A stretch of 64,000 nt of DNA from Blastococcus sp. PRF04-17 (lineage in GTDB: Bacteria; Actinomycetota; Actinomycetes; Mycobacteriales; Geodermatophilaceae): positions 1,674,001 through 1,738,000 of the forward strand of contig NZ_CP095412.1 of the NCBI RefSeq assembly GCF_023016265.1. Reading direction: 5' to 3'. Below are positions 2,502 to 18,672 of this stretch, one piece after another (the stretch's first letter is position 1; each line of letters opens with the position of its first letter). Below the pieces are notes generated by a model. That model had not been told where the DNA came from. It did no database searches and was given only the letters and a program-made list of their open reading frames with translations. The translations under genes were made by a program, and so were the position numbers.

Positions 2502-2623
2502 GGCGCTAAGGCACGTGAAAGGCACGGCGTCCACGTGACTTGACGCTGAGCTGCGGAGAAGGGTGTCAGAGGCGCCAGCCTTCAAAGCTGGCCATGCGGG
2601 TTCGATTCCCGTCACCCGCTCCA
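2502..2623 (+). repeat. tRNA-Gly-half repeat, copy A
   Basis: First of four related elements (A-D). A 5' module resembling GGCACGTGAAAGGCACGGCG is followed by a variable stretch and then, from about 2568, the 3' half of a tRNA: anticodon stem-loop CCAGC-CTTCAAA-GCTGG, a T arm with TTCGATT, and the 3' acceptor strand CACCCGCT plus CCA. The 5' half (acceptor strand and most of the D arm) is missing, so this is not a working tRNA. The loop carries TCA where B and D carry TCC. It fills most of the 334-nt gap between two convergent genes, and nothing else is visible there. Confidence 0.8.
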
Positions 2624-2720
2624 TCGACCGAGAGCCCGAAGGTCGGCCCGTCACTCGATAGCGTGGGCTTCGCGGCATGGTTGTGAGCCGTGCTGTCCTG
2701 CCCCTGACGCGTGCCCCTCC

Positions 2721-3402
2721 TCAGCGCCAGCAGTACTCGGTCTCCGGACGCCCAGCTCCGCCGTAGCGCTGTGCGCGAGCAGCGACCCCCGTGTCGGCGA
2801 GGTACTCCAGGTACCGCCGGGCAGTGATCCTGGAGGCACCGATCTGCCCCGCAACTTCTGCCGCGGAGCGTCCCTCGGCGCCGCGGAGCGCGGCCACCAC
2901 CGCGTCGAGGGTCTGTCGGTGCATCCCCTTCGGCAGCGGGGCCGGTCTCGCGGGGCGCGCCCCCTGGAGCGCTCGGTCGACGTCCTCCTGACCGACGGCG
3001 TCGCCCTCGGTCCGCAGTCGCTCGCGGTAGTCGGCGTACGCGGTGAGCCGGTCGCGCAGCGCTGCGTAGGTGAACGGCTTGAGCAGGTAACCGACGACGC
3101 CGTGCGCAGCGGCGGCGCGCACGGTGGCCAACTCGCGCGCCGAGGTGACGGCGAGAACGTCGACGTCCACGCGGCCTGCTCGGATCCGCCGGCACAGCTC
3201 GATGCCGTGCGTGTCCGGCAGGTTCATGTCCAGCAGCACCAGGTCGACCGGGGTGCGGGCGAGCGCGTCCACGGCCGTCGCTCCGGTGCCGCCACCGCCA
3301 CGGTGGCGAAGCCGGGGGTCGATCGACGTAGGCGCGGTGCGCCTCGGCCGCCACTGGCTCGTCCTCGACGACCAGCACCCGGATGACGGTCCTGCCGGTC
3401 AC
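2721..3402 (-). pseudogene. DcuR/CitT-type response regulator, frameshifted
   Basis: Response regulator of the citrate/C4-dicarboxylate family. The N-terminus VIRVLVVEDEP, the phospho-acceptor segment LVLLDMNLPD, the Lys of LLKPF, and a C-terminal helix-turn-helix (AEVAGQIGASRITARRYLEY) are all present. The receiver part is split by two frame breaks, near 3315 and near 3290. At both, one extra G/C in a run restores the expected order, so these may be sequencing errors. The GTG start at 3402 overlaps the kinase stop (GTGA), the sign of a translationally coupled pair. Its likely target is the divergent dctA gene. The C-terminus ends at 2721. Confidence 0.8.
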
Positions 3403-4970
3403 GGGGCGACGTCCAACGGCGCGCGCACCGGCAACGAGACGGAGAACGGCGCGCCGGGTCCGTGCCGCACGTCGATCGAACCAGCATTGCGACGGACCGC
3501 CTGCGCGACCAGCGCCAGCCCCAGGCCCCGGCCGGGTGTCCCCTTCGTCGACCAGCCTCGCTCGAACAGGTGCGGGATCTGCCCCTCGGTGATGCCGGAG
3601 CCGGAGTCCTCGACGGTGATCTCCAGCCGGCCCTCCTCCACCCATGCGGCGAAGTGCACCTCCCGAGGCGGCTCACCGGTCAGCGCCGCGTCGATCGCGT
3701 TGTCCAGCAGGTTGCCCACGATCGTCACGAGGTCCCCGCTCGGGATGCCTGTCGTGCCGACGGCGGTGCCCGGATCGATGTCGAGCCGCACGCCGCGCTC
3801 GTGCGCGGTGGCGGTCTTGCCGAGGAGCAACGCCGCCAGCACCGGCTCCTCCACCGCGTCGACCACGCGGTCGGTCAGCCGTTGGGACGTCGCCAGCTCG
3901 GCGGTCGCGAATTCGACGGCGTCCTGCCCGCGGCCCAGCTCGATCAGCGACACGGTGGTGTGCAGCCGGTTGGCGGCCTCGTGCGACTGAGCCCGCAGCG
4001 ACTCCGCGAAGGCGCGGACGCTGTCCAGCTCGCCGGTCAGCGCCTGCAACTCCGTGTGGTCGCGGAGGGTGACCACCGTGCCGTCCGAGCCGCCGGGCGC
4101 ACCCGTCGGCGCCTGGTTGACCACCAGCACCCGGCCACCGCTCACGTGCACCTCGTCGACGGTGCGGCCCTGACCGGCCAGCGTCTCGGCCAGGTCGCGG
4201 GACAGGCCCAGGTCGGTGACGTGCCGGCCGTTCGCCTCGGCGTCGATGCCCAGCAGACGGCGGGCCTCGTCGTTGACCAGCTGCAGCCGCCGGTCGCCGT
4301 CCAGCAGGAGAAGGCCCTCCCGCACGGAGTGCAGCACGGCGTTGTGATAATCGAGCATCCGCTTGAGCGCTGCGGCGTCCAGGCCACCGGTCTGCCGCCG
4401 CAGCCGCCGGCTGATGAGCCAGCTGCCCGCCGTCCCGACGGCGAGCGTCAGCAGCCCGGTTCCGATGATCCCGGGCAGCGCCCGGGCCAGGTCGGCACCG
4501 ATGGCATCCAGGGTGATGCCGGCCGACACGAGGGCGACGACCCGGCCATCGCTGTCGACGATCGGCCCTGTGGCGCGGACGGATGGCCCGAGCGTGCCCG
4601 TATATGTCTCGGTGAACGTGCGTCCCTCCAGCGCCAGCTCGATCGTGCCCCGGAACGGCTGGCCGATCTGCGCCGGGTCGGGATGGGTGAACCGGGTCCG
4701 GTCAGGGGCGAACACCGTGATGAAGGAGAGGTCGGTGTCGGAGCGCACGGTCTCCACGTAGGGCTGCAGGACGGCCGTGGGATCCGGGCCGGTGACCGCT
4801 TCGACGACGAAGGGCGCGTCGGCGATGGCTTCCACGACCGCCGTCGTCTCGACCTCGGCGTGCCGCTGCACCGTCCGGCGGGCGTCGAGGTAGGCGATAA
4901 CTGACGCCGCGACGACGACCACCGCTACCACCAGCGCCTGCAGGACCAGGAGCTGACGCGCCAGGCTCAC
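3399..4970 (-). CDS. CitA/DcuS-type sensor histidine kinase
   Basis: Membrane sensor kinase, about 523 aa from GTG 4970. Order: TM helix (about residues 5-28), extracytoplasmic sensor domain, second TM helix (LPGIIGTGLLTLAVGT), PAS-like domain with DGDRRLQLVNDEARRLLGID, a phospho-acceptor helix with His330 in SHEAANRLH, and an ATPase domain with NLLDNAIDA, EDSGSGI and GRGLGLALV. This layout is that of sensors for citrate, malate and fumarate. An ATG at 5051 would lengthen the N-terminus; GTG 4970 is preferred because TM1 then follows directly, but neither start has a strong ribosome site. It overlaps the response regulator gene by 4 nt and is divergent from dctA, so it probably senses dicarboxylates. 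Confidence 0.88.
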   Translation of the reverse strand: MSLARQLLVLQALVVAVVVVAASVIAYLDARRTVQRHAEVETTAVVEAIADAPFVVEAVTGPDPTAVLQPYVETVRSDTDLSFITVFAPDRTRFTHPDPAQIGQPFRGTIELALEGRTFTETYTGTLGPSVRATGPIVDSDGRVVALVSAGITLDAIGADLARALPGIIGTGLLTLAVGTAGSWLISRRLRRQTGGLDAAALKRMLDYHNAVLHSVREGLLLLDGDRRLQLVNDEARRLLGIDAEANGRHVTDLGLSRDLAETLAGQGRTVDEVHVSGGRVLVVNQAPTGAPGGSDGTVVTLRDHTELQALTGELDSVRAFAESLRAQSHEAANRLHTTVSLIELGRGQDAVEFATAELATSQRLTDRVVDAVEEPVLAALLLGKTATAHERGVRLDIDPGTAVGTTGIPSGDLVTIVGNLLDNAIDAALTGEPPREVHFAAWVEEGRLEITVEDSGSGITEGQIPHLFERGWSTKGTPGRGLGLALVAQAVRRNAGSIDVRHGPGAPFSVSLPVRAPLDVAP

Positions 4971-5163
4971 GCCACCGGAGCGGCGTCCCGCGTGAACACC
5001 CGGGTCTCCCACGGGAGGAAGTGTGCCGCGCCCAAGCGTGACGGGGGCCACTTACGAAATGAACGAATCGGTGACCGGTCTCCTGGCCAGGCCCACTGTG
5101 GGACATCGCACACCCCCACCCGGCCCCCGGGCGGGAGCAACTCCACACTCCACAGGAGAAGGA

Positions 5164-6573
5164 ATGGCCCCGAACACCGTGTCAGCTCCCCCGCCGAGCC
5201 GCAGGCGGCGGGACCGCACCCACTGGCTGTACCTCGCCGTCATCGCGGCCGTCGTCCTGGGCGTCGCCGTCGGCTTCGCGTTCCCAGAGTTCGCGACCAG
5301 CCTCAAGTGGCTCGGCACCGCCTTCGTCGGCCTCATAAAGATGCTGATCGCGCCGGTCATCTTCTGCACGATCGTGCTGGGAATCGGCTCGATCCGGCAG
5401 GCGGCGAAGGTCGGCCGGGTCGGCGGCCTCGCGCTCGGCTACTTCCTGGCCATGTCCACGGTCGCGCTGACCATCGGACTGCTCGTGGGCAACGTCCTGA
5501 AGCCCGGTGACGGCCTGCAACTGTCCGAGGCACTCCGCGGCCAGGGCGCCGACCTGGCAGCGACGGCACACGAGAGCGGCGGGACGACGGACTTCGTGCT
5601 CGGGCTGGTGCCGACCACGCTGGTGTCATCGCTCACCGCCGGCTCGGTGCTGCAGGCGCTGCTGGTCGCCCTGCTCGTCGGCTTCGCGCTGCAGGCGATG
5701 GGCCGCTCCGGTGAGCCGATCCTCCGCGGCATCGGACACCTCCAGAAGCTGGTCTTCCGGATCCTCGCGATGATCATGTGGGTGGCACCGATCGGCGCAT
5801 TCGGCGCGATCGCCGCCGTCGTCGGCGAGACCGGCCTGGACGCCCTGAAGAGCCTCGCCGTGATCATGATCGGGTTTTACGCGACCTGTGCGCTGTTCGT
5901 CTTCGTCGTGCTGGGCTCGCTGCTGCGACTGGTTGCCGGGGTCAACATCTTCAAGCTGCTGAAGTACCTGGCCCGCGAGTTCCTGCTGATCGTCTCGACC
6001 TCGTCGTCCGAGACGGCTCTGCCGCGGTTGATCGCCAAGATGGAGCACGCCGGTGTGAGCCGGCCGGTGGCCGGCATCGTCGTCCCGACCGGGTACTCGT
6101 TCAACCTCGACGGCACCGCCATCTACCTGACGATGGCCTCGCTGTTCATCGCCGAGGCGCTGGGGACCCCGATGTCGCTCGGCGAGCAGATCGGGCTGCT
6201 GCTCTTCATGATCATCGCCTCGAAGGGGGCAGCCGGGGTGACCGGTGCCGGCCTGGCCACGCTGGCCGGCGGCCTGTCGGCCCACCGCCCCGACCTGCTC
6301 GACGGGGTGGGGCTCATCGTCGGCATCGACCGGTTCATGTCCGAGGCCCGCGCGGTGACCAACTTCGCCGGCAACGCTGCCGCCGCGCTGCTGGTCGCCA
6401 CCTGGACCAAGGAGCTCGACCGCACCCAACTGTCGGCAGCCCTGTCCAGTGAGAGCCCGTTCGACGAGGCCACCATGCTCGACGACGAGAACCACGGCGC
6501 CCGGGAGACATACCCGTCCACAGGAGACGGCGCGGCGCCGTTCGAGAAGCGGGAGTTGGCAGGGGTTCGCTGA
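5164..6573 (+). CDS. dctA: C4-dicarboxylate:cation symporter DctA
   Basis: DAACS-family secondary carrier, 469 aa, in the cytoplasmic membrane; it imports succinate, fumarate and malate with cations. Hallmarks: hydrophobic helices throughout, the serine-rich re-entrant loop STSSSETALPR near residue 280, GYSFNLDGTAIY near 311, and GIDRFMSEARAVTNFAGN near the end. These match DctA more closely than glutamate carriers (GltP). ATG 5164 follows an AGGAGAAGG ribosome site; the 47 residues upstream in the same frame are not carrier-like. It is transcribed away from a DcuS/DcuR-like two-component pair, which probably switches it on with substrate. Confidence 0.92.
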   Translation: MAPNTVSAPPPSRRRRDRTHWLYLAVIAAVVLGVAVGFAFPEFATSLKWLGTAFVGLIKMLIAPVIFCTIVLGIGSIRQAAKVGRVGGLALGYFLAMSTVALTIGLLVGNVLKPGDGLQLSEALRGQGADLAATAHESGGTTDFVLGLVPTTLVSSLTAGSVLQALLVALLVGFALQAMGRSGEPILRGIGHLQKLVFRILAMIMWVAPIGAFGAIAAVVGETGLDALKSLAVIMIGFYATCALFVFVVLGSLLRLVAGVNIFKLLKYLAREFLLIVSTSSSETALPRLIAKMEHAGVSRPVAGIVVPTGYSFNLDGTAIYLTMASLFIAEALGTPMSLGEQIGLLLFMIIASKGAAGVTGAGLATLAGGLSAHRPDLLDGVGLIVGIDRFMSEARAVTNFAGNAAAALLVATWTKELDRTQLSAALSSESPFDEATMLDDENHGARETYPSTGDGAAPFEKRELAGVR

Positions 6574-6588
6574 GCAAGTGACCACCCG

Positions 6589-6625
6589 TGATGCCCGGCG
6601 CCTCAGGTCGAGGTGCCGGGCATCA
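6589..6625 (+). terminator. hairpin after dctA
   Basis: Inverted repeat TGATGCCCGGC-G-CCTC / GAGG-T-GCCGGGCATCA with a short loop, 15 nt after the dctA stop. No clear U tract follows, as is usual in GC-rich Actinobacteria. Confidence 0.75.
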
Positions 6626-6741
6626 CCGACTCTTGCTCGGTCGCGCGAGGGACGTACTTCCGTGATCACGACCCACTGCCGCCTGACAAGAGCCCCGACC
6701 ACAGCCAGGAGAACAGGGGGTCTCCGCGTGTATCCGGTCCA

Positions 6742-6854
6742 GGCATGTGGAAGGCACAGCGTCCGCCTGATCTTGCGCCGACCAGCCAGGATGGTGCTCC
6801 GAGCCCCAAGCTTCCAAGCTGGCCATGCCGGTTCGATCCCGGTCACCCGCTCCA
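6742..6854 (+). repeat. tRNA-Gly-half repeat, copy B
   Basis: Second element: 5' module GGCATGTGGAAGGCACAGCG, a variable middle, then a tRNA-Gly(UCC)-like 3' half from about 6806 (AGCTTCCAAGCTGG loop region with TCC anticodon, T arm CGGTTCGATCCCG, CACCCGCT, CCA ending at 6854). Homology with copy C continues about 12 nt past CCA (YGTCYTGACCAG). The rest of the gap between dctA and the convergent hydrolase shows nothing else apart from the dctA hairpin. Reverse-strand readings of this element give ORFs that look alike between copies only because the DNA is alike. Confidence 0.82.
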
Positions 6855-6934
6855 TGTCTTGACCAGGTGACGTCCCCAGCGGGCCAGGAGCCGAGCACGC
6901 GATCAGCGGCTGAGCAGCGACTCGGGACCGCTCG

Positions 6935-7750
6935 TCAGTTCGCACAGATGACCGAGAGGTGCGGTGCACAACCGGTCTGCCAGCCGGCGCCCGCGAAGGC
7001 ATGCCGGGTGTCACCCGCGTTCTGGGCGAAGTGTCGCCAGCCATCTTGGTGGGCGACGATCACGTGCTGGGCGTCGAGGATCTCCGCTGCGGCGACGGCT
7101 CGCTCCGATGTCAGACTGAGGGGACGCCCATCGAACTTGGACGGAACCGAGGCGGCTCCCGCGAAGAGGACCGCGCAGTCCATCGGTCCGAACCGGTTAT
7201 AGATATCCCGAACGAGTGCCAACGAGGCGTTGTCACCGCTGACGTATGTCTTCGGGGAGCCAGGTGCCTCGATCACGAATCCGGTCACCTCACAGTTGAC
7301 GAACCCCTCGTCGTTGAGCTCTCCGTCGGCAGGGCCGTGGCGTGCCGGAACGGCAGTGATGGTCATTCCGTGCAGGTCCCAGGTCTCCCACACGCCCCTG
7401 CCTTGCACAGGAGGACCGAGCCGGGTAGCGGCGGTGGTGGGGGCGAGCACGATGGGAGCCGATAGCGCGAATTCCCGACCTGACTCGTCGAAGTTGTCCG
7501 GATGGAGATCGTGGCTGAGCAGCACGGCATCGACGTCTCCGACCACGCCGATCTCGACGGCCGGGCCCTCGGTCTTGACCAGATAGCCGTAGTCGTGCGG
7601 CGGATCGAATGTGGGATCGCACAGTAGCCGTCGCCCTGCCACGTCGATAACGGTGGTGGGGCCGCCCGTCACAGTGACGGCGAACTGTCTGCGGTCCGGG
7701 GTCAGACGAGCCCCGCTGGAGGCTCCACACGTCCACACGATCGGATCCAT
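6935..7750 (-). CDS. MBL-fold metallohydrolase, UlaG-like
   Basis: Metallo-beta-lactamase-fold hydrolase, 271 aa from ATG 7750. Supporting motifs: GGPTTVIDVAGRRLLCDPTFD at the N-terminus, the metal site region LLSHDLHPDNFDESG, PARHGPADG, TYVSGDNA and the C-terminal ligand region VIVAHQDGWRHF. This is the UlaG-like branch (phosphodiester, lactone or amide hydrolases); the substrate is unknown. The start is uncertain: a GTG just before TGGPTTV is also possible. It lies downstream of the nitrilase/MFS operon on the same strand but is separated from it by a strong hairpin, so it may have its own promoter. Confidence 0.75.
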   Translation of the reverse strand: MDPIVWTCGASSGARLTPDRRQFAVTVTGGPTTVIDVAGRRLLCDPTFDPPHDYGYLVKTEGPAVEIGVVGDVDAVLLSHDLHPDNFDESGREFALSAPIVLAPTTAATRLGPPVQGRGVWETWDLHGMTITAVPARHGPADGELNDEGFVNCEVTGFVIEAPGSPKTYVSGDNASLALVRDIYNRFGPMDCAVLFAGAASVPSKFDGRPLSLTSERAVAAAEILDAQHVIVAHQDGWRHFAQNAGDTRHAFAGAGWQTGCAPHLSVICAN

Positions 7751-7832
7751 TCGGTCAGAGCGGCAGAGAGAGAGCGCGAGTGCTGACGACTGGCCCGCGC
7801 TGGCGGGCGGGTTGCTCCGGCCCATGGCTGCG

Positions 7833-7875
7833 GGAGCGGGTCGTGGGGACCGCAGCGGTCCCCACGACCCGCTCC
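7833..7875 (-). terminator. near-perfect 21-bp-arm palindrome after the MFS gene
   Basis: Arms GGAGCGGGTCGTGGGGACCG and its reverse complement meet almost without a loop between the MFS stop (7893) and the hydrolase start (7750). It is best read as the terminator of the nitrilase/MFS operon; a dimeric protein site is possible. Confidence 0.75.
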
Positions 7876-7892
7876 TGGATGGCCGGAGCCGC

Positions 7893-9251
7893 TCAGATGT
7901 GCTCCAGGTCGAGGTGTCGCCGGTCACGAGCCGCGAATCCACCGACCAGGAGGAACACGCCGCCGACTGCCGTGATGACCACGGGGGTGTAGTCGTAGTC
8001 CATGAACGTGCCCATGCCGACCATGTAGTAGGCGTAGAAGGCCGGGATGAGGCTGGGCAGGCTGTAGGCCACCCCGTAGCCCGATGCCCGAACGTTCGTT
8101 GGGAAGAGTTCCATGAGGAACGCCGTGATCATCGCCCAGATCGTCAACCCGGGAACGATCGCGACGATCGAGAACAGGATCATCGCGACGTTGTCGCTGT
8201 TGGCCACGGCGAGCCCCATGGCGGTCGCGGCGACCACGGTGCAGGCCAGGCCGATAGCCATGATCATCTGACGCCGCCCGTAACGCTGCCCCGCCGCTCC
8301 CACGACCGGGAACAGCGCCGCCCCGACTACTGCGGAGATGAGGATGACCGTGTTGATTCGGGTATCGGTCACTCCTAGGGCCCGGAAGTGGCCGGCGAAG
8401 ACACCAATGGTGCCGTTGAGCGTCAGCCACGCCCCAGTGCCGACGAGGAACGCGATGCCGAAGGACTTGGCGTTGCTCCCGGAGAACAGTGTCCTGAGCG
8501 GGTTGCCGGTGTTCTTCGGCATCTTGGTCCAGATCTCCGACTCCGGCACCGAGGTGAGGTAGTAGAAGAACAGCGAGGAGCAGAAGATGAACCCGACGAC
8601 GAAGGGGATGCGCCAGCCCCAGACGGCGTAGGCGGAGTCAGGGCCCCCGGCAGGAAAAGCGGCCAAGGTGAGCAGGGTGACGACGGTGATGAAGCCGAGC
8701 GCGAGGGGATACCCCATGTTGATCATCGACCCGGCGACACCGCGCTTGTGGCGGGGCGTGTACTCCATAGCCAGCGGGTTGGCGGCGGTGTACTCACCAC
8801 CGAGGAAGATTCCGTCAAGCAGGCGGAGTGCGATCAGGAGCACGAGCGCCCAAATGCCGATGACGGCGTAGCCGGGGAGCATCGCCATCAGTCCGGTACA
8901 CACTGCGGAGCCACCGGCTGCGATCAGGGTCGTCTTGCGACGTCCGACCTTGTCGCCCAGAGGCCCGAAGATCAAGGAACCGAGGGGGCGGCCGATGATC
9001 GAGGCGACGAAGATCAGCGCTCCGTACACGGCCATGTCAACTGTGGTGGCCCCGGTGGCAGTGAAGTAGGCGATCGCCGGCGCGAGGACGATGACCGGCA
9101 GGTAGACGTCGTACATGTCGACGAAGAAGCCGAACATCGCCGCACCGAGCGCGCGACGTCCCTTGGCCCGGAACTCCGGCGTGTCCTCGACTGTTGACGC
9201 AGCTACCGGCCGGTCGACGTTCGCAAGCGCCGTGGATCCGGTCTCACTCAT
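7893..9251 (-). CDS. MFS transporter, metabolite:H+ symporter (MHS) type
   Basis: Twelve-helix major facilitator, 452 aa. Seen: GFFVDMYDVYLPVI in helix 1, the loop 2-3 signature GPLGDKVGRRK, DGIFLGGEY in helix 4, and the second-half loop QRYGRRQ. MHS members carry small carboxylates and similar metabolites. Its ATG overlaps the nitrilase stop by 8 nt (ATGAGTGA), so the two proteins are made together; the carrier most likely imports the nitrilase substrate or exports its carboxylate product. Ends at a strong hairpin. Confidence 0.85.
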   Translation of the reverse strand: MSETGSTALANVDRPVAASTVEDTPEFRAKGRRALGAAMFGFFVDMYDVYLPVIVLAPAIAYFTATGATTVDMAVYGALIFVASIIGRPLGSLIFGPLGDKVGRRKTTLIAAGGSAVCTGLMAMLPGYAVIGIWALVLLIALRLLDGIFLGGEYTAANPLAMEYTPRHKRGVAGSMINMGYPLALGFITVVTLLTLAAFPAGGPDSAYAVWGWRIPFVVGFIFCSSLFFYYLTSVPESEIWTKMPKNTGNPLRTLFSGSNAKSFGIAFLVGTGAWLTLNGTIGVFAGHFRALGVTDTRINTVILISAVVGAALFPVVGAAGQRYGRRQMIMAIGLACTVVAATAMGLAVANSDNVAMILFSIVAIVPGLTIWAMITAFLMELFPTNVRASGYGVAYSLPSLIPAFYAYYMVGMGTFMDYDYTPVVITAVGGVFLLVGGFAARDRRHLDLEHI

Positions 9252-10284
9252 GGGACATCTCCTCGGTTGAGAGGGTGCGAGGGCTGCGGTTGTCGTTGCT
9301 GGTGCTCACCGGCACATGGCGAGACTTGTTCACGCCGAACGAGAAGACGTCCATCCGCTGGTAGGTGCCAGTGACGTCGTGGGCCTGCTTGGGCACTATC
9401 CGGTCACGAGGATTGATGTCGGCGTAGAGGATGCCTTCGTCGGCAATGAGTGGTCCGGCGAGGTACTGGCCGGAGGGGCCGAGGATCATGGAGGCCGTCG
9501 GCTTCCCTCTCAGCAACTTGACGATGCCCTCGTCTCCACGGGCGACGAGATCGACGGCGTGGTCGTCGAGGGCCGTGGAGGCGACGATGTTGAACACCTT
9601 GCCCTCGAAGGAGTGCGCCGCGCTGCGAAGCCGGATGCTCTCGGCCAGGTCGTACTCGTCCCGGCTGTCACTGCGGTCGAAGGGCCACGCAGGCGGATAG
9701 GCCGAGATGTGGACTTCTTCGCCTTGCGCCATGAGGGCATACCGGGCCAACGGATTGGTGTTCTCTCCGCACAGCAGCATGCCGAGCCGGGTGCCCGCCA
9801 CCTCGACGGTCCCGAGGTCATGACCGTCCCCGTGGGACCACACCAGACGCTCGGCCCACGTGGCAACGAGCTTGCGACGGTGATTCAACAACGTGCCGTC
9901 GGGCCCGAAGATCAGGTTCGAGTTCCACACAGTGCCGACGCTGACGGGGCTGACCTCGTTGATTCCGACCGAGAGCACGACCTCATGCGACCGGGCGATC
10001 GAGGCCAGACGGCGCACTTCGGGACCAGGAACCTCGATGGCCGATTCCACCAGCTGGATCTGGAAGTCGTGCTGATCCACCGGAGGCAGCACGTTCGCCC
10101 AGATGGGGAAGCCGGATAGGAACGATTCGCCGAAGGCGACGATCTGGGCGCCCTCGGAAGCAGCCTCCCTGACCAGGCCCTCGAGCTTGGCAAGGGTCGT
10201 GTCGGTGTCGAACAGGGCCGGGGCTGCCTGAACGGCTGCGACCCGCAGTGGCGAGAATCGATTGACCGGCGTTGCTGACGCCAT
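9244..10284 (-). CDS. nitrilase (carbon-nitrogen hydrolase)
   Basis: Nitrilase branch of the CN-hydrolase superfamily, 346 aa; converts a nitrile to carboxylate and ammonia. The Glu-Lys-Cys triad is complete: Glu53 in FGESFLSGFPIW, Lys138 in HRRKLVATW, Cys172 in LLCGENTNPLARY, followed by HISAYPP as in aliphatic/aryl nitrilases. ATG 10284 is preceded by AAGGAGG at ideal distance; a longer start near 10374 would run into the regulatory region. First gene of a two-gene operon with an MFS carrier, divergent from a TrmB-type regulator, with a palindromic operator-like site 37 nt upstream. Confidence 0.9.
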   Translation of the reverse strand: MASATPVNRFSPLRVAAVQAAPALFDTDTTLAKLEGLVREAASEGAQIVAFGESFLSGFPIWANVLPPVDQHDFQIQLVESAIEVPGPEVRRLASIARSHEVVLSVGINEVSPVSVGTVWNSNLIFGPDGTLLNHRRKLVATWAERLVWSHGDGHDLGTVEVAGTRLGMLLCGENTNPLARYALMAQGEEVHISAYPPAWPFDRSDSRDEYDLAESIRLRSAAHSFEGKVFNIVASTALDDHAVDLVARGDEGIVKLLRGKPTASMILGPSGQYLAGPLIADEGILYADINPRDRIVPKQAHDVTGTYQRMDVFSFGVNKSRHVPVSTSNDNRSPRTLSTEEMSHE

Positions 10285-10320
10285 GGTTCCTCCTTGTCGA
10301 AGCTCCACGGGGCGGGAGTA

Positions 10321-10339
10321 TGTCGCCGATTCTCGACAA
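10321..10339. promoter_or_regulatory. operator candidate 1 (TGTCG-N9-CGACA)
   Basis: TGTCGCCGATTCTCGACAA, an imperfect inverted repeat in the nitrilase/regulator divergent region, 37 nt before the nitrilase ATG. A second copy lies at 10432-10450. Confidence 0.6.
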
Positions 10340-10403
10340 CATGCGGTCGTACCGTCGTGAAGCGCCGGGGACACTAAGAGCGCTAACCAGGCCCGTCAAG
10401 GGA

Positions 10404-10409
10404 TTGACA
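10404..10409 (+). promoter_or_regulatory. possible -35 box of the TrmB-type regulator gene
   Basis: TTGACA on the regulator strand; a -10 element at normal spacing would fall at about 10427-10433, at the edge of operator candidate 2, which would fit autorepression. Confidence 0.4.
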
Positions 10410-10431
10410 TTCACCCTCTTCGGGGCGAGTG

Positions 10432-10450
10432 TGTCGTCCGATCTCGACAA
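10432..10450. promoter_or_regulatory. operator candidate 2 (TGTCG-N9-CGACA)
   Basis: TGTCGTCCGATCTCGACAA, 19 bp like site 1, with the same arms (TGTCG/CGACAA) and an almost identical centre, 11 nt before the regulator ATG. Placing one site by each divergent gene is the usual layout for a local regulator controlling itself and its neighbour operon. Confidence 0.6.
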
Positions 10451-10461
10451 TAGGAGCGCTG

Positions 10462-11223: not shown

Positions 11224-11438
11224 TCGCCTGGTCGCCCTTGGCCGCTGGGCCTCGACCGTCAACGTACGGCGGCCGAGGCCCTGCCACGCCCGGGCGCCCA
11301 CAGTCGTCAGGCCTTGTCGCGTGGGAACCCGCTGAGGATCGCTATCATCCTCATGCACTCAGTGGCGTCCACCAAGGTGGTGTGCGACGGCCCCTCGATG
11401 CAGGTGGCGAAGCAGATCAGGTCGAGCAGAGTGGACCG

Positions 11439-11914
11439 TCAGCCGAAGGTCAGTCCGTACTTGTCGATGATGGGCACGGTGGCTTCGAAATCTTTCTCGC
11501 ATCCGTAGGGTGCGATGACGGGGCCGAGGTCGAAGTCGTCCGGTGCGCTGTCGATGATGCGGAACCCCTCCTCCAGCCCACCGGGCGAGATCGGCTCCAG
11601 CAGGCGGGCACTTTCGTCGGCGGCGTTGAAGAACGTGTGCCACTCGCCGCGCGGTTTGAAGACCAGGTCGCCGACCTCGGCGACGAGTTTCTCGCCGTCG
11701 GCGACGAACCAGACCCGACCTTCCAGGACGAAACTGAACTCGTCCTCCTTGGTGTGCTGCTGCAAGGGAGCCGCGATGGCCCGCGGCGCCAGCAGTGTTC
11801 CACGACCGCCAGGTGTCCGCCCCAGTCCTTGGAGTCGATCAGGAATCGGTCCCGACATCCTGATGGCGCACCGAGGATCTCGCCCGCGCCGGCGCGAATG
11901 ACCCTTGCCTTCAT
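11439..11914 (-). pseudogene. cupin-domain protein, frameshifted
   Basis: Small single-domain cupin, about 158 aa when joined. The N-terminus MKARVIRAGAGEILG through GGHLAVVEH starts at 11914 and the rest (LLAPRAIAAPLQQHTKEDEF, then GDLVFKPRGEWHTFFN with the metal-binding Glu/His positions) runs in another frame to 11439. The break is near 11796, where one extra G (cagcag-gtgttcc) joins the two halves as VVEHLLAPRA. Sequencing error is likely. Divergent from a LuxR-type regulator 82 nt away, hence perhaps its target. Substrate unknown. Confidence 0.75.
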
Positions 11915-11996
11915 GAGCCGAGCGTCCTGCGCGACGCACCCTCACGCCATTGCACAAACCTGGTACGCCGTCCCGCGGGTCTGGTAGGCCGTCGAC

Positions 11997-13135
11997 ATGA
12001 CCGATGTCGCGCGGGTGATCGACAAGTTGGATTCCGTCGCCGGCTCGGGCCTCGACCTGGTCACCCTCCGGCGGGAGGCGGAGCCTTTGCTGGCCGAGGC
12101 CGTTCCACACTTTGCGGCCGCGTGCTTCTTCACCGTCGATCCCTCGTCGCTGCTCACGACCAGTCACTTCCAAGCGGGGCTGCCCGAGATCCCGGCCGAG
12201 TGGCTGGGCAGGGAGTACGCCGAGGGCGACTACAACTCCATACGGGAGGTGCTGCGGTCAGCGACCGGCGTGGGCACGTTGCACGACGCGACCGGGAGTG
12301 CGGCCGGAGCTGTCCCGCAAGTTCCACGACGAGATGCGGCCCTTCGGTTGCGACCAGGAGCTGCTCGTCGCGCTGCGCACCCGAGACGGAGGGGCCTGGG
12401 GCCTCGTCGGGCTGTACCGCGAGACGGGTAGACCGGACTTCTCCGCCCAGGACATCGCGTTGGCGCGGCGAGTTGCGCCTGGACTCGCCGCCGGCGCCCG
12501 GCACGCCCTGCTACTCGGGCAGGCCCGAGAGCCCGACCTACCGCAGGCACCAGGCCTGGTCGTCCTCGACGAGCGGCTCGCCGTCGACTCGGCGACCCCC
12601 ACAGCGTCCCGTGGCTGGCCGACTTGGGCGGCACCCTCGAGCGCCCCCCGCGAGTGTTCTCACCGTCGCGGGCCACGTGCTGAGCGGTGGCGGCGGCCCA
12701 GTCGAGTCCCGAGTGCGTGCCGACAGCGGGCAATGGATCGTCCTGCACGGCGCCCTCCTCGCCCGCCGAGGCGGACAGCGTCAGGCGTCGGTCGTCCTCG
12801 AAGCCGCGCACCCCACGCACCTCACCTTGCTCCTCATGCGGGCTTACGGGCTGACCTCGCGCGAACAGGACGTGACCCGCCAGGTGCTCCGCGGGCGATC
12901 GACGAAGTCGATCTCCCGTGAGCTGTCCATCACGGGCGGCACGGTCCAGGCACACGTACGCAACATCTTCGAGAGGACCGGCGTCCGGAGCCGACATGAG
13001 CTGGTCGCGGTCGCCTTCCGTCGCCATTACGAGCCCCGGATCCGGGACAACGAGCGCCGGACGAGATCCGGCCTTCCCTCACGACACGGGCCCGGGCCGG
13101 CTGACCATGCTGTCGGGGCGGGCCGCCGGCCCTGA
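11997..13135 (+). pseudogene. LuxR-type HTH regulator with sensor-like N-terminus, multiply frameshifted
   Basis: The N-terminus (MTDVARVIDKLDSVAGSGLD...) and a GAF-like middle (FHDEMRPFGCDQELLVALRT, GAWGLVGLYRETGRPDFS) lead to a clear C-terminal LuxR helix-turn-helix: LTSREQDVTRQVLRGRSTKS, then SRELSITGGTVQAHVRNIFE. The reading frame changes near 12293, near 12595 and again near 12640, so at least three lesions would be needed; this is the most damaged gene in the window and may be a true pseudogene. It diverges from the cupin gene. The ligand cannot be predicted. Confidence 0.72.
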
Positions 13136-13349
13136 GAGCACGTGACGGGGCCACCGCTGCCCCGTAGGTGGGGACCAGCCGGAGCCGGGCCGTCGTGCGT
13201 CGTGCGCGTCAGCGATGGAGCGCCTACCCCGCAGGCGAACGGTCCCGGTGAACCGCCGACCCGGCGACCGAGGTGGTGCCGGGTGCGGTGGACGGGGGAG
13301 TTCCCGTGGCGCGAACATGCGGACGTCGGTCGGGTCCCAGACGACCTTC

Positions 13350-13369
13350 GTGGCATGATTGTGGCATGA
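13350..13369 (+). promoter_or_regulatory. direct repeat GTGGCATGA x2 over the antitoxin start
   Basis: GTGGCATGA-TT-GTGGCATGA; the second copy contains the antitoxin ATG (13366). Tandem sites over the first gene are common in autoregulated toxin-antitoxin operons, so this may be the operator. Confidence 0.45.
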
Positions 13370-13602
13370 GTCGAACACGGATCAGCACGACCGTCGATGA
13401 CGATCTCCTTCAGGCGGCTCGACGGCTGCGATCGGGTGACACCGATGCCGCCATGATCGATGAGGCGCTTCGCGCGCTGGTGGCGCGCCACCGTTCAGTC
13501 GAAGTCGACGCGAGTTACGCCGCGTACGACGAACACCCGCTCGACGAGCCGGATGAGTGGGGTGACTTGGCGTCGTTTAGGGAAGCCGCCGGACGGTCGT
13601 GA
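13366..13602 (+). CDS. type II antitoxin, MazE/VapB-like
   Basis: 78 aa. The N-terminal ribbon-helix-helix-like DNA-binding part ([20 protein letters not shown]...) and an acidic C-terminal tail ([18 protein letters not shown]) are typical of labile antitoxins that wrap the toxin. The stop codon overlaps the toxin start (GTGA). ATG 13366 was chosen because the next gene and the tail fit this short form; the longer in-frame reading from 13273 is not antitoxin-like. The pair ends about 130 nt before tRNA-half repeat C. Confidence 0.8.
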
Positions 13603-13928
13603 CGACGCTGCCCTCGCGCGGTGAGGTCTGGTGGTGCGAGTTGCCCGAAATAGGGCGCCGCCCGGTCGTCGTCCTCTCGCGTGACGCCGTCATCCCGCGC
13701 CATCGGCGCGCACTCGTCGCGCCATGCACCACCACCATCCGCGGCCTCGTCAGCGAAGTCGGCCTCGAGCCCGGTGAGGACCCGGTACCCCGCCGCTGCG
13801 TGGTCAACATGGACTCGATCGAGAGCGTCTCTATTGCGGTCCTCGTCGAGCGGCTCGGCCGGTTGGCCGACACGCGCATGCGGCAGATCTGCGTAGCCCT
13901 CGCCGTCGCGGTCGACTGCGCGGACTGA
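13599..13928 (+). CDS. MazF/PemK-family endoribonuclease toxin
   Basis: 109 aa. Signature N-terminus [20 protein letters not shown], then the Arg/Thr-containing core [16 protein letters not shown] and [11 protein letters not shown] with the C-terminal helix [18 protein letters not shown]. MazF toxins cut mRNA at short sequence motifs. GTG 13599 overlaps the antitoxin stop, so the proteins are translationally coupled. Complete frame. Confidence 0.88.
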
Positions 13929-14061
13929 TGCTGTCACGGTGGAGTGACCTACCTGGAGATCGTGGAGGACGCCGCACATGGCATCGGCCGCCGGTCCATC
14001 GGGCAAGCATGTTCCGGCACAGCGCGGTGAGGTGCTCGCCGTCCTCCGATCGCCCAAACGT

Positions 14062-14182
14062 GACGCTGAGGCACACAGAAGGCACGACCCCGGGCCGGTA
14101 GCCGTCTGACCAGCAGATCAGTGGGTCCAGAGCCATAGCCTTCCGAGCTGGCCATGCCGGTTCGATCCCGGTCACCGCTCCA
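14062..14182 (+). repeat. tRNA-Gly-half repeat, copy C
   Basis: Third element: GACGCTGAGGCACACAGAAG, a middle with CTGACCAGCAGA shared with copy D, then a tRNA-Gly-like 3' half from about 14131 (AGCCTTCCGAGCTGG, T arm CGGTTCGATCCCG, CACCGCT, CCA). One C of the acceptor strand is missing relative to A, B and D. Homology to B runs on to about 14194 (CGTCCTGACCAG). It occupies the gap between the MazF gene and a convergent membrane protein gene; the rest of that gap holds nothing visible. Confidence 0.82.
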
Positions 14183-14239
14183 CGTCCTGACCAGCTCACT
14201 GAGGCTGGCAACGGCCTCACTGGAGCTTGGCGTGCGAAG

Positions 14240-14962
14240 TCAGTCGGCTTGTCGGTGCCCGTGCAGCAAGCTGATCCCGGCCCACACGAACCAGGCGATG
14301 AATCCCAGCCCGAAGATGGCTCCGGCATAGTCAACTGCCTGCGGCACGAGGGTCCACGCGCCGGCCAGCCCCACCGCGATGCCCAGCGCGCCGAGGTAGC
14401 GGCTCAGTGCCCCGGTCCGCATACCGGCGAAACTGACCAGGAATACCCAGGCAGCGCCGACGATCTCGATGCCGCCGCCCAGCGCGTCTTGCACCACGCT
14501 GACCGACGACCATGTCGACACGGCGGTGACAGGGTCGGCCGCCGCGAGCTCGATGACGGCGCCCTGCCCCACGAGCGCGATGAGGCCACTGGCGAACAAG
14601 AGGCCGGCCCAGAGGATGCCCACGGCGGCCGCCGTCTGTGACAGGCCGTGGGCTGCTCGGCAGAGCCGGTCGTGCACCCCGATCACGAGACTGACCAAGG
14701 CTGCTCCGCCGATGAGGTAGAGCACCAAGTGCCAGGTGTACATCGCCGCCTGGTGGTCGAGCAGGAACGCCAGGGAGCGCGCGGGGTCGCCCTGTGCTTC
14801 GAGGAACCCTGCCGGCGCCAGGTAGGCGCCCAGGACGCCGAAACCGACGAGGTACGTCGCCGCCTTCACGAGGCTCGCGATGCCACCTGCGCGCTGAAGC
14901 CCGGACGAGGTTCGGGATGTGGTGGGTAAGGGGGTTGAGGTTGTCGTCGTCATGGTGACCAC
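14240..14962 (-). CDS. multi-spanning membrane protein, DUF4386-like
   Basis: 240 aa with a Thr/Ser-rich N-terminus and about six hydrophobic helices (for instance AATYLVGFGVLGAYLAPAG, WHLVLYLIGGAALVSLVIGV, AAAVGILWAGLLFASGLIAL). The C-terminal half (SRYLGALGIAVGLAGAWTL) resembles DUF4386-type membrane proteins, whose function is unknown. A C-terminal fragment of a similar family lies at about 18978. No catalytic residues are evident. Confidence 0.65.
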   Translation of the reverse strand: MVTMTTTTSTPLPTTSRTSSGLQRAGGIASLVKAATYLVGFGVLGAYLAPAGFLEAQGDPARSLAFLLDHQAAMYTWHLVLYLIGGAALVSLVIGVHDRLCRAAHGLSQTAAAVGILWAGLLFASGLIALVGQGAVIELAAADPVTAVSTWSSVSVVQDALGGGIEIVGAAWVFLVSFAGMRTGALSRYLGALGIAVGLAGAWTLVPQAVDYAGAIFGLGFIAWFVWAGISLLHGHRQAD

Positions 14963-15433
14963 CGTCCGGCCGGAGGCGCGGCCGGCACATCGGCCTCGAG
15001 GCCAAACCTGTACTGGCCGAAAGGCCGACCACGGTGGCGATGTGGCCCATGGCGCGGCCGACGCTGCGCCGTGGGCTCACGTGGTGATCACCAGGGCGGC
15101 GCTGCGGATCCTGTGGGGCGGGCCGCAAGTCTCGGCGCCGCCCGCGCTGGCGGTGGGACGTCGCCGTGGACACCCCACGGCTCCAGCGTCCCGTCCACCA
15201 CGGTGAAGCTCCGGAAGGACGGCGCTATGCAGGGAAGCTCGCCGCGAGTAGCGCGCGCCGAGAGCGCTCCACCACTGGCACCGCCGTAGCGCGGTGTCAG
15301 CCGACACCGATGACGGGGCCTTGTGACGGCGGCATCCCTCTGTGGGCTCGTCTGCCCTGGACGAGGGGGACGACCTGCGCCACGCACATTCGGCTGAGGC
15401 GTCACCGCTGTGGCCTCGGGGCTTCCGAGCGGA
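14963..15433. other. non-coding gap with a small hairpin
   Basis: 471 nt between two leftward genes. No convincing protein or RNA gene is visible on either strand. A short stem CGGTGTC/GACACCG near 15293-15310 could end transcription of the two-component operon upstream. Confidence 0.4.
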
Positions 15434-16090
15434 TCAGGTGTCGACGCGGCGCGTCTCGTAGGCCCACATGACGATCTCGACGCGGTTGCGGGCATTGAGC
15501 TTGCGCATCAGGGCGGCGATGTGTGTCTTGACGGTGCTGAGGCTGATCGACAGCTCATCGCCGATCTCGCTGTTGGTCCTCCCGCGAGCGGCAGCGAGCA
15601 GGACCTGTTCCTCCCGCGAGGTCAGCGGCTCGACGGGCTCGGGTGGCACCGAGCGTGAGCGGCTGTTGGCGAAAGAGGACAGGAGCCTCGCGGTGATGTT
15701 CGGTGCGATCAGGGCGTCGCCGCGGGCGGCGGCATGCACGGCTTGGGTGAGCAGCTCGGCACCGGCATCCTTGAGCAGAAAGCCGCGAGCCCCTGCCTTC
15801 AGCGCGCCGTAGACGTACTCGTCGAGGTCGAAGGTGGTGATGACGACGACGGCCAAAGGGTCGACGACATCGGGCCCGGCGAGCTGCCGGGTGGCCTCGA
15901 TCCCGTCGACGTCCGGCATGCGGATATCCAGCAGGCACACATCGGGACGTAGCGAACGCGCCATTGCGATCGCCCGTCGGCCGTCCGCCGCCTCGCCGAC
16001 GACGGTGATGCCTGGCTGCGCGTCCAAGATCATGCACAACCCCGCCCTGACGATGTCCTGATCGTCGGCGACGAGCACGCGGATGGTCAT
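15434..16090 (-). CDS. NarL/FixJ-family response regulator
   Basis: 218 aa. Receiver domain with the acidic pair in RVLVADDQDIVRAG, phospho-Asp near residue 55 in CLLDIRMPDVDG, and the KT/K positions ITTF and FLLKDAGAE; C-terminal LuxR-type helix-turn-helix (LTSREEQVLLAAARGRTNSE, SLSTVKTHIAALMRKL). The ATG overlaps the kinase stop (ATGA). Together with the kinase and the divergent DUF6326 gene this is a small regulatory island between repeats C and D. Confidence 0.9.
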   Translation of the reverse strand: MTIRVLVADDQDIVRAGLCMILDAQPGITVVGEAADGRRAIAMARSLRPDVCLLDIRMPDVDGIEATRQLAGPDVVDPLAVVVITTFDLDEYVYGALKAGARGFLLKDAGAELLTQAVHAAARGDALIAPNITARLLSSFANSRSRSVPPEPVEPLTSREEQVLLAAARGRTNSEIGDELSISLSTVKTHIAALMRKLNARNRVEIVMWAYETRRVDT

Positions 16091-17219
16091 GACGCACGCA
16101 CCGTCAAAGGCAGCGAGGCGTCGACGCTCCAGCCGCCGTCCGGGTCAGGTCCCGCCTGGAGGGTGCCTCCGAGGAGGCCCGCCCGTTCCGCCATGCCGCG
16201 CAGCCCGTAGCCGGCGGGCGTGGGGCTGGCCGTACTGGCCTCGCCGTCGTCGTGAATTCGCAGGCGCACCTGGCCGCGGGAGGCGGCGACGTCGATGGTG
16301 ACCTGGGTAGCCCCGGATGCGTGCCGGGTCGCGTTGGTGACCGCCTCGGCGGCGATCAGGTAGAGGGCGGTGCTGACTGCTGGGTCGACAGCATCGACGT
16401 CATCGGAGACCTGCACGCGGACGCCCAGCACCTCGCCTCCGGGGCGAGCGAGCCGCTCGATGTCCGCCACGCCCCGGCGGGGGCGAGATCGGCGTCCGTT
16501 CCGTCGCGCAGCACACCCACCAGCGCCCGCATCTCCTTGAGCGTCCGGGACGCCTCTTCCTCGATGGTGACCAGGGTGGCCAGCGCGCGCTCAGGATCTG
16601 CAGCCGACAGCGCGCGACCTGCCTGCGCCTGGACCGCGATCGCCGATACGTGGTGCCCGACCGTGTCATGCAGCTCGCGGGCTAGTTCGTTGCGCTGGCG
16701 CAACCGCACCTGCTCGATCTCCCGGACGCGGCTGCTGGTGCTGTAGCGCACTGCCGCGCCGAGCGCGGCCGAGAACAGGAAGAAGCCGTAGCCGGCGACC
16801 CACTCCGCAGGTGAAGCCGGGTTCGCGATGAAGGTGACGGGTAGCCAGGTGAGGATGATGCCGAGTCCGAGGGCAGCCTCGCGACCTGCCCCCCAGCGCA
16901 GCAGGGCGTAGGGCAGTACGAGCACCCCGGCGATGCTCTGCAGGCCGGTGGCATCGACGGCCACGATTCTCGCGATGTCGAAGGCAAGGAGGGATCCGAA
17001 GGCGACGGCGACCGCGGCCAGCGGCCTCGTGCGCCGCCACAGCAGGCACGCGGCGACGACCAGGCTCACGCTGAGGACCAAGGGTGCCCATGCCTTGTCC
17101 TCGCGCAGCAGCGTCTCGACGACCGAGCCCGCGACGAGAACCGCCACCAGAGCCCAGTCCCGCCAGACCCGCACCGGCGGGTTCCCGGGGCGCGGCTCGG
17201 CCCACAACGCAGCCAGCAT
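16087..17219 (-). pseudogene. NarL-class sensor histidine kinase (HisKA_3), frameshifted
   Basis: N-terminal membrane part with several helices (WALVAVLVAGSVVETLL, LVLSVSLVVAACLLW, GVLVLPYALLRWG, GYGFFLFSAALGAAV), then the dimerisation helix with phospho-His in ELARELHDTVGHHVSAIAVQ, and an ATPase domain (LIAAEAVTNATRHASG, GYGLRGMAERAGLLGG). Frame is lost near 16475; one extra C in a C run (gcccc) joins APAGG to VADIERLARPGG, so sequencing error is likely. ATG 17219 follows GGGGAGGGGAAG. Partner of the response regulator at 15434-16090. Confidence 0.82.
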
Positions 17220-17402
17220 GCTTCCCCCTCCCCGCCACCGTAGAGGGGCCGCCACTCGGGCGGATCAGCCGAAAGTACTGCGGATGTCCAGTCCCCGCGG
17301 CCAGGACAGCTGGAGCCCGCAGGCGGATGTGTCGCCTGTCCACGCAGGTCACGGTGAGGACGTCGACCGAGCCGACCAGCTCACCAGCACACAGGAGACG
17401 TG

Positions 17403-17879
17403 ATGACCAGCAGCAGCACGACCGCCGGCGCATTCCAGGAAGCGCGGCTCCCGGTTCGAGCGAAGCTCGCAGCAGCCTGGACCAGCTTCATGTTCCTCTA
17501 CATCTACGTCGACTACCTCGCCCTGTACAAGCCGGGCTTCATAGACGGCATCCGGGGCGGCGTCGTCCACGAGTTCGACACCGGCCCGACCTTCGTCGGC
17601 CTCGCGCTCACGCTCATGGCCATCCCGATCCTCATGATCCTGCTCTCCGCGACACTGCCCGCCCGGGTCAATCGCGTCACCAACCTCGTCGTGGCGGCGC
17701 TCTACATCCCGGTCTCGATCTACAACGCGGACGGCGAATCGTGGACCTACTCCTTCTTCTACGGCCTCTCCATCGGACTCGAGGTGCTGCTCCTGGCCTT
17801 CGTCCTGCGCGCCGCCTGGACCTGGCCCTGGACCACTCGGACCACCGCCGCCCGCGACCTCGCCCAGGCCCAGGTGTGA
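17403..17879 (+). CDS. DUF6326-type small membrane protein
   Basis: 158 aa with four hydrophobic helices: AWTSFMFLYIYVDYLALYKP, GLALTLMAIPILMILLSATL, RVTNLVVAALYIPVSIYN and GLSIGLEVLLLAFVLRAAW. The FLYIYVDYLALYKPG segment is the hallmark of this uncharacterised family. A GTG just before the ATG (17400) is also possible; an AGGAGA ribosome site serves both. Divergent from the two-component pair, hence a likely target of it. Function unknown. Confidence 0.7.
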   Translation: MTSSSTTAGAFQEARLPVRAKLAAAWTSFMFLYIYVDYLALYKPGFIDGIRGGVVHEFDTGPTFVGLALTLMAIPILMILLSATLPARVNRVTNLVVAALYIPVSIYNADGESWTYSFFYGLSIGLEVLLLAFVLRAAWTWPWTTRTTAARDLAQAQV

Positions 17880-17948
17880 CGCTCGAGGCAGGTCCGCTGC
17901 CCGTGGTCGGTGACCTCAGCTCTAGTGAGCAGCGACTGAGGTTGCCTG

Positions 17949-18260
17949 TCACAGGCCGAGGACCAGGCGCAACGCGGCGTCAACCTGGCGCAATTCATCG
18001 AAGCTGAGGCGCCCGACCACCTCCCCCAACCGCTGAGGATCCACGGCACTCGTCTGCTCAGCCAGCACCCGGGTCGGGCGCCCCTCGATGGATACCTCAG
18101 GACGGAACGTGGCCGTGCGTGCCGAGGTGGACGTCGGAGCGACCAGCCAGGTCGACAGCGGCAGCAGGTCGGACTGAACGACGACCGCGTAGCGGACGCC
18201 GGCCTGCTCATGTCCCCGGGCACCCCGGGGTGTGCGCAGCCGGTGTACCTCACCACGCAC
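17949..18260 (-). CDS. MazF/PemK-like toxin, second pair
   Basis: About 103 aa from GTG 18260. Core features of the PemK/MazF fold: RGEVHRLRTPRG, GVRYAVVVQSDLLPLSTW, LVAPTSTSARTATFRPEV and a C-terminal helix FDELRQVDAALRLVLGL. The gene overlaps the antitoxin gene by 11 nt. It is clearly different from the toxin at 13599. A presumed mRNA interferase; target motif unknown. Confidence 0.78.
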   Translation of the reverse strand: MRGEVHRLRTPRGARGHEQAGVRYAVVVQSDLLPLSTWLVAPTSTSARTATFRPEVSIEGRPTRVLAEQTSAVDPQRLGEVVGRLSFDELRQVDAALRLVLGL

Positions 18261-18483
18261 GCAGCGTCTCCATGTCCCGAAGGATCTGAGCCGCCTCGGC
18301 ACGATCCGCGTCATCGGCGACCAGCGCAACAGCCTCTGCGCGCAGCCTGTCCTGCGCTGCCGTCTTGGCGGCCTCGATCAGAGCTGCTCGAACGGCCGTG
18401 GAGACAGGGGTGCCATCTTGCGTCAGAACGGCCAACGCCCGGCGGGCGTCCTCGTCGGGACGGAAGGTGATCGTTTCAGCCAT
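18250..18483 (-). CDS. ribbon-helix-helix antitoxin, second pair
   Basis: 77 aa. N-terminal strand-helix-helix (ETITFRPDEDARRALAVL, then VSTAVRAALIEAAKTAAQ) followed by an Ala/Asp/Glu-rich helical tail, as in antitoxins of MazEF-like pairs. Its stop overlaps the toxin gene. It starts 68 nt from tRNA-half repeat D and is transcribed away from it. Confidence 0.78.
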   Translation of the reverse strand: MAETITFRPDEDARRALAVLTQDGTPVSTAVRAALIEAAKTAAQDRLRAEAVALVADDADRAEAAQILRDMETLRAW

Positions 18484-18550
18484 CCTTGAAGTGTCTCACC
18501 GGTTGTAAGACGAAGGGCCGAGCTGCTGGAGGTTTCCGCGGAGACGAGCC

Positions 18551-18672
18551 GATGCTGAGACACATGGAAGGCAGGAACGCTGCCGGCCGAGCCACTGACC
18601 AGCAGAGACGCGCCTGAGGGGTTCAAGCCTTCCAAGCTGGCCATGCCGGTTCGATCTCGGTCACCCGCTCCA
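18551..18672 (+). repeat. tRNA-Gly-half repeat, copy D
   Basis: Fourth element: GATGCTGAGACACATGGAAG, CTGACCAGCAGA as in copy C, then a tRNA-Gly(UCC)-like 3' half from about 18620 (CAAGCCTTCCAAGCTGG, TCC anticodon, T arm CGGTTCGATCTCG, CACCCGCT, CCA). Unlike A-C it lies upstream of its leftward neighbour gene and not between convergent genes. A perfect 14-bp hairpin follows 7 nt later. Confidence 0.82.

Follow-up and report, generated by a model that had tools for sequence, protein, structure and literature searches.

Half-tRNA-Gly repeats with an integrase-gene tail as putative attR sites of integrase-less cassettes in Blastococcus sp. PRF04-17 and related actinobacteria

Arrays of cassettes which carry no integrase of their own, and which count toxin-antitoxin (TA) genes among their cargo, are familiar from the superintegrons. 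Cis-mobilisable elements (CIMEs) are portrayed in the available text of a cited paper as integrase-less, cargo-bearing, flanked by attachment (att) sites and arranged in tandem at one 3' gene end, with classical sizes of 1.2-13 kb (PMC7563491). Repeats of tRNA 3' ends are described in Methylophilaceae (20 nt of a tRNA-Lys; PMC10872708) and at one island in Alteromonas (52 nt of a Leu tRNA; PMC4119200), and tycheposons are presented as tRNA-bordered elements with metabolic cargo and a tyrosine recombinase (PMC10872708). Here we describe a stretch of 64,000 nucleotides from Blastococcus sp. PRF04-17 (contig NZ_CP095412.1, genome positions 1674001-1738000; hereafter the window), in which four copies of an element of about 120 bp, each ending in half of a tRNA-Gly(UCC) gene, lie one behind the other. 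We think it likely that these copies are the right-hand attachment sites (attR) of cassettes which entered behind tRNA-Gly(UCC) without an integrase and were moved by the integrase of a relative.

Half-tRNA copies behind tRNA-Gly(UCC)

A first reading of the window from its letters alone (the original prediction) had proposed four diverged same-strand copies, and this was confirmed by BLASTN and by an alignment of 24 copies from this genome and its relatives: all four lie on the + strand where they were predicted, align over about 120 bp and have as their 3' half tRNA-Gly(UCC) from the anticodon stem to CCA. With the addition of a search for the box pattern described below, copy A was placed at 2502-2623 (boxes 2509-2525, tRNA-Gly core ~2575-2623), copy B at 6741-6854, its start at about 6741 (boxes 6741-6757, core ~6806-6854), copy C at 14062-14182 (boxes 14069-14085, core ~14135-14182) and copy D at 18551-18672 (core ~18624-18672), where the boxes are degenerate (~18558-18574) and the exact pattern is missed. 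Within the window, BLASTN aligned A with B at 79.7% over 118 bp (E 5e-20) and C with D at 76% over 130 bp (E 3e-17), and the tRNA halves by themselves matched at up to 94%. The 5' module was common to the copies in the 24-copy alignment and its spacing was nearly constant, the consensus being AGGCAC-N5-AGGCACG, ~20 nt, TGACCAGC, ~20 nt and then the tRNA half. A shared 5' module had been predicted and was found; the part of it read as CACATGGAAGGCA, however, comes from two AGGCAC boxes with a spacing of 11 bp, degenerate in copy D, and the middle sequence CTGACCAGC, thought to be special to C and D, is the majority sequence across the 24 copies.

The intact tRNA-Gly(UCC) gene, which remained to be located, lies outside the window at genome positions 1663465-1663538, 13 kb before copy A, and the four window halves are direct repeats of its 3' end, downstream and on the same strand. 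Intact 5' tRNA halves beside the copies, or a lack of copies elsewhere, had been named as grounds for dropping the family, and the reverse was found: no intact 5' half adjoins any of the window copies and many further copies exist in relatives. No complete cloverleaf was found among the window copies; the sole call, a tRNA-SeC gene at copy A (ARAGORN, 2553-2623), is not listed by Rfam at the gathering threshold and was rejected. From the intact gene to copy D we read four tandem cassettes on one strand, of ~13.1, 4.2, 7.3 and 4.5 kb, with each copy the putative attR of its cassette; cassettes B-D have half-tRNA cores at both ends. The four window cassettes and two segments of a second array to the left showed no similarity to the integrases used at E 0.01 and no PF00589 match, and the selected window genes run against Pfam included no relaxase.

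In the mechanism which we propose, a tyrosine integrase would recombine attP with the tRNA gene within the core, between the anticodon arm and CCA, and the incoming element would rebuild the 3' half of the tRNA and leave the old half at its far end, so that repeated insertion would give a tandem same-strand array. Autonomous relatives would carry the integrase gene at their right end, with its last codons overlapping a P arm with two AGGCAC boxes, and the window cassettes would have kept the boxes and the core and lost the remainder of the gene. Since boxes and core are kept and the integrase is lost, we take the cassettes to have been moved by an integrase from a relative, either in trans or in cis after accretion.

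Seven halves lie near the intact tRNA, all on the + strand: the four in the window and three upstream of the gene at genome positions 1466942, 1497758 and 1522712, the first of which is not preceded by the module. A further half, the eighth, is diverged and module-bearing and lies at 2539091. Seven diverged module-bearing copies in one genome might be taken for a tRNA-derived non-autonomous repeat which copies itself as a 120-bp unit, as the original prediction had allowed, but all of them share one strand, two att arrays at most 170 kb from tRNA-Gly take in six of the seven, the genome has no exact box pair anywhere else, the module corresponds to the end of an integrase gene and the cargo beside a copy recurs with that copy. 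We therefore set this explanation aside as extremely improbable.

The 5' module and the integrases of relatives

The unit shared beyond the tRNA part, which had been recognised correctly, is the 3' tail of an integrase gene with its boxes and forms the P arm of attP. An intact tyrosine integrase gene in relative G006 ends in AAAMSAALRHSDGTTSA*, the module agreeing at the DNA level with these final codons; copy A, read in this frame, gives LRHVKGTAST*. Across a set of 51 rows (one place entered twice), LRHAEGTASA* is exact in four and the majority of the remaining rows deviate at few places. Because intact integrases of relatives run into module sequence, we identify the module with the last ~11 codons of a tyrosine-integrase gene, which would double as the P arm of attP.

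The autonomous relatives in which an integrase gene was found to adjoin the site are G107 and G049, where intact genes run into a degenerate tRNA-Gly-like half. The integrase tail meets the apparent half of another tRNA in G006, G041, G060 and G103, four genomes of three genera in which the protein is identical over 381 aa, suggesting recent transfer. At these four loci (L156-L159) a module copy lies ~4.8 kb beyond the integrase, with another 53-55 kb farther in three of the four, and they perhaps represent a large element which has spread recently. A 65% identical integrase gene in G061 (L171) ends ~36 bp before an intact tRNA-Gly(UCC) and not before a half. The integrase matches PF00589 (E 1.9e-15), and we take the conserved residues in its alignment to be the catalytic R, H-x-x-R, H and Y. 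Among named records, this protein occurs in Blastococcus, Klenkia, Geodermatophilus and Modestobacter, and in one labelled Bacillus. The record labelled Bacillus sp. AZ43 (unverified; SPQJ01000003.1, L209) carries this Geodermatophilaceae element, and its label looks wrong.

An intact integrase lies upstream in 4 of the 65 distinct module copies. In roughly twenty more, copy A included, a decayed, frameshifted integrase tail is readable by eye upstream of the boxes; the apparent remnant of the C-terminus in front of copy A occupies 2455-2501 (+), and similarity of this upstream sequence to other copies extends to 2454 in L146 and to 2450 in L147. By tblastn, six same-strand tail matches were found at E < 0.01 beyond the four intact genes, copy A not being among them (no acceptable match at 2455-2501); one match on the opposite strand was treated as noise. 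We dropped the idea of a precise cut at the boxes in every copy, since many seem to retain decayed tail. The retained tails fit an alternative explanation, in which the cassettes are inert remnants of autonomous elements that each had an integrase, entered in tandem and decayed in place, never being mobile without it.

The exact box-pair pattern has five matches in the whole 4.59-Mb genome, all on the + strand and all at att arms (P arms at 1497766, 1676509, 1680741 and 1688069, and a fifth in a P' arm, 118 bp past the half at 1522712), and the reversed-pattern control gave one match in the same genome. We expect the boxes to be arm-type integrase sites, to which the integrase would bind. The ~12 nt which the original prediction saw beyond CCA in B and C are present in both (TGTCTTGACCAG at 6855-6866 and CGTCCTGACCAG at 14183-14194, both on the + strand), and they resemble the start of the other attachment arm, P'. 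A box pair, in a looser pattern, lies at +113 to +119 in 5 of 18 P'-like places. A palindromic stretch (GACACCGTTCACAGGTGTC with its flanks) follows CCA at the intact tRNA (genome positions 1663539-1663585), at copy D (18673-18720) and at several relatives' halves, and may be another type of P' arm or the ends of insertion sequences.

A processed regulatory RNA ending in CCA had also been offered, and one T-stem pair does stay paired through a double change in 8 of the 24 copies. That covariation, however, concerns 1 of 12 predicted pairs and belongs to the T-stem of the tRNA, with no covariation supported within the module, and Rfam at the gathering threshold gave no match; we regard such an RNA as having hardly any likelihood. 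Compared with the resident tRNA, copy A carries a paired change in its T-stem, also seen in some relatives' copies, and the core of this copy may come from another tRNA-Gly lineage.

Other recombinases were also considered. Cousin integrases with ~40% identity were found in G076 (L148), G017 (L078) and G009 (L070), and those in G076 and G017 end just before a tRNA-Gly half with a different intervening sequence; this family was rejected as the source of the module because other sequence follows its stop codon. The window's own genome encodes a diverged integrase of the tyrosine type at 1556611-1557918 (-), near tRNA-Asn and tRNA-Arg genes (E 1.9e-20 to the integrase profile), and PF00589 matches are similarly placed, by position only, ~90-145 kb upstream of tRNA-Gly in G008, G009, G011 and G015. 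This resident integrase is a distant relative of the module integrase and is unproven as a helper. A large serine recombinase was rejected as the agent, PF07508 having no match in the genome.

Cassette D in other genomes and the spread of the module

We searched a sequence model of the 24-copy alignment over 112 genomes of the Geodermatophilaceae, with matches listed to about E 9e-15. It matched 111 of them, many through the intact tRNA alone. Among the matches listed, the module forms the start of at least 91, spread over at least 47 genomes and seven genera; all module matches are on one strand in each of the 19 contigs with two or more, and an integrase gene is attached to 2 of the 91 (in G061 and G107). 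Of the three options in the original prediction, that of att sites of a tRNA-targeting integrase is the one supported, by the att architecture, the integrase-tail module and the tandem arrays.

The main block of cassette D (the cassette at 14183-18672, +) was found at att sites in three further genomes. In G076, which belongs to another genus, similarity runs from 14138, inside the core of C, to 18674, at the end of copy D, falls into three blocks at 93% and does not pass beyond either core; ~0.2 kb is missing and ~0.4 kb extra in this version. For G012, of the same genus as the window, and G049, of a third one, identity is 91.5-92.3% over the main block and 82-83% over the last 0.75 kb. What precedes the unit is an intact tRNA in G012, another module copy in G049 and, in G076, a half which itself follows a decayed integrase of the cousin type; the sequence after the unit differs among this genome, G076 and G012, while G049 agrees with this genome for ~40 bp past the copy. 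A housekeeping gene, which we take to be clpX, is 95% identical to that of this genome in G012, 92% in G049 and 92% in G076. With D at 93% in G076 and ~92% in G012 (82% in its last 0.75 kb), D is therefore no closer to that of the same-genus genome. No integrase similarity was found in its counterparts. Together these comparisons suggest that D moved without an integrase of its own, and they are the strongest evidence here for the movement of such a cassette. They also count against inert remnants, as four genomes from three genera have the block at att sites without an integrase, its neighbours differing in G076 and G012, and its identity to the other-genus genome is not below that to the same-genus genome; we consider decay in place unlikely. 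The array in G076 continues after cassette D with an element that does bear an integrase, which fits transfer by accretion with an integrative and conjugative or mobilisable element, as in CIMEs.

A number of observations nevertheless weigh against mobile cassettes served by a relative's integrase. The window's own genome yielded no close copy of the integrase (0 matches at E 1e-40), a result which also fits inert remnants, and many inspected intact integrase genes with 88-90% identity to the query (e.g. L161-L166, L169 and L170) have no recognisable tRNA-Gly half after them. The P arms of D and of the copies at 1522712 and 2539091 miss the exact box pattern. The boxes appear much better conserved than the integrase tail, but this profile was built on copies found by the same box motif, so that it is biased toward conserved boxes and is no proof of selection. 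A P' start of the TGACCAG type follows only 7 of 16 intact tRNA-Gly genes of relatives (at most one mismatch) and was found at only 18 of 91 distinct places, counting those with enough sequence available and merging identical 60-nt ends. The three halves to the left sit 141-197 kb upstream of the intact tRNA in the same orientation, which is the wrong side, and are the exception to the rule of direct repeats downstream; as the flank of the leftmost (1466942) is common to G008 (81% over 1038 bp), and as this half has no module and is followed by P'-like sequence, we infer an old insertion at a secondary site. Within D, G012 and G049 have unrelated sequence in place of the left ~1.1 kb (14199-15307), the unit in G049 has ~3.9 kb extra, and the gene block has no module within 1.5 kb in 8 of the 11 relatives fetched. 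A sigma-factor gene at 20675-21664 (-), 2.0 kb after D, was taken as backbone past the array, and its homologue in G018 (65.5% identical) lies 40 bp from tRNA-Gly, an arrangement which we read as an empty or near-empty site; of the 16 stretches fetched, however, just 5 showed such a homologue, at distances from the tRNA of between 40 bp and 13.4 kb. Finally, the movement of cassettes is deduced here from the comparison of sequences only.

Cassette cargo and comparison with known systems

The cassettes carry different genes. Cassette A starts at the intact tRNA-Gly, and its part in the window (1-2623, +) includes an aldehyde dehydrogenase gene (809-2386) among others. Cassette B (2624-6854, +) encodes a DctA-type dicarboxylate transporter (5164-6573, +), a DcuS/MalK-like sensor kinase (3399-4970, -) and a response regulator (2721-3272, -), these calls having NCBIfam scores under the curated cut-offs. 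Cassette C (6855-14182, +) contains beta-lactamase-fold, major facilitator superfamily, nitrilase-type, cupin and LuxR-type genes and then a TA pair, and cassette D encodes a LuxR-type response regulator (15434-16090, -), a histidine kinase (16356-17255, -) and a DUF6326 protein (17490-17879, +). Some match to the 3.8-kb cargo of B is present in 73 of the 112 genomes, its own included, many of them partial. As homologues in other genera (best 79% over 97-3863 of 4117) have no module within 1.5 kb (0 of 11 fetched loci), this cargo appears to have been captured.

TA genes lie close to two of the attR sites. Near that of C are a VapB-type antitoxin gene (13273-13602, +; PF09957, E 6.7e-8) and a PemK/MazF-type toxin gene (13599-13928, +; PF02452, E 9.2e-16), the latter 139 bp before the module. 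A second PemK/MazF-type toxin gene is found at the right end of D (17949-18329, -; PF02452, E 1.2e-17), with a candidate antitoxin of 77 aa, proposed from position and sequence only, upstream of it (18250-18483, -). Of the 65 module copies, 9, C included, have relatives of the C-type TA genes, some of them fragments, in the 1.5 kb upstream, always on the same strand. Among attR neighbours, 27 proteins from 57 copies were scanned together with two window proteins, and 9 of the 29 match PemK; these are probably the C- and D-type toxins again. Such pairs may stabilise the cassettes.

A broader picture, which we offer as a tentative and rather doubtful one, is that of a family-wide pool of integrase-less metabolic cassettes, superintegron-like but on tRNA-Gly half-sites, with a helper integrase from a few autonomous relatives, the tail kept as its binding site and MazF-type TA pairs retaining the cassettes. 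If cassettes of this kind do move, the right end of a cassette would need just ~120 bp, an integrase tail with boxes and half a tRNA, and loci which are ordinary in other genera, such as a dicarboxylate transporter with its two-component system, would be seen to turn portable. There would then also be a simple sequence mark for integrase-less mobile cassettes which integrase-first searches miss, and a testable helper system in these actinobacteria, which live in soil and rock.

The att sites found between the window cassettes are half-tRNAs, in distinction from the attC of superintegrons, and the integrase of the family is not of the integron type (22.2 bits, where NCBIfam integrase_gron has its cut-off at 265). 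No paper on this layout was found in literature naming Geodermatophilaceae or Blastococcus. The original prediction knew of no description of it, which holds only in part, as tandem integrase-less elements at tRNA genes are known in the form of CIMEs and additive islands. With CIMEs, as far as the available text describes them, the window cassettes share the lack of an integrase, paired att sites, cargo and a tandem arrangement at one gene end; they differ in their site and host, tRNA-Gly in Geodermatophilaceae, in the four units in a row without a related integrase found in the array, and in an attR which retains the last codons of the integrase gene (PMC7563491). Derivation from an integrative and conjugative or integrative and mobilisable element by deletion is a trait of CIMEs; as for the window, an apparent decayed integrase tail is seen by eye in copy A and in others. 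Additive flexible genomic islands are alike in that gene cassettes target a conserved tRNA and leave repeats of its 3' end, and differ in that the available descriptions have no integrase-tail module with boxes beside the halves (PMC4119200, PMC10872708). Tycheposons are alike in their tRNA-bordered metabolic cargo and differ, by the available account, in having a tyrosine recombinase of their own, no related integrase having been found in the window cassettes (PMC10872708). Set against the available text of these sources, the kind of element is known, from CIMEs and additive tRNA islands, and the integrase tail retained at attR is new.

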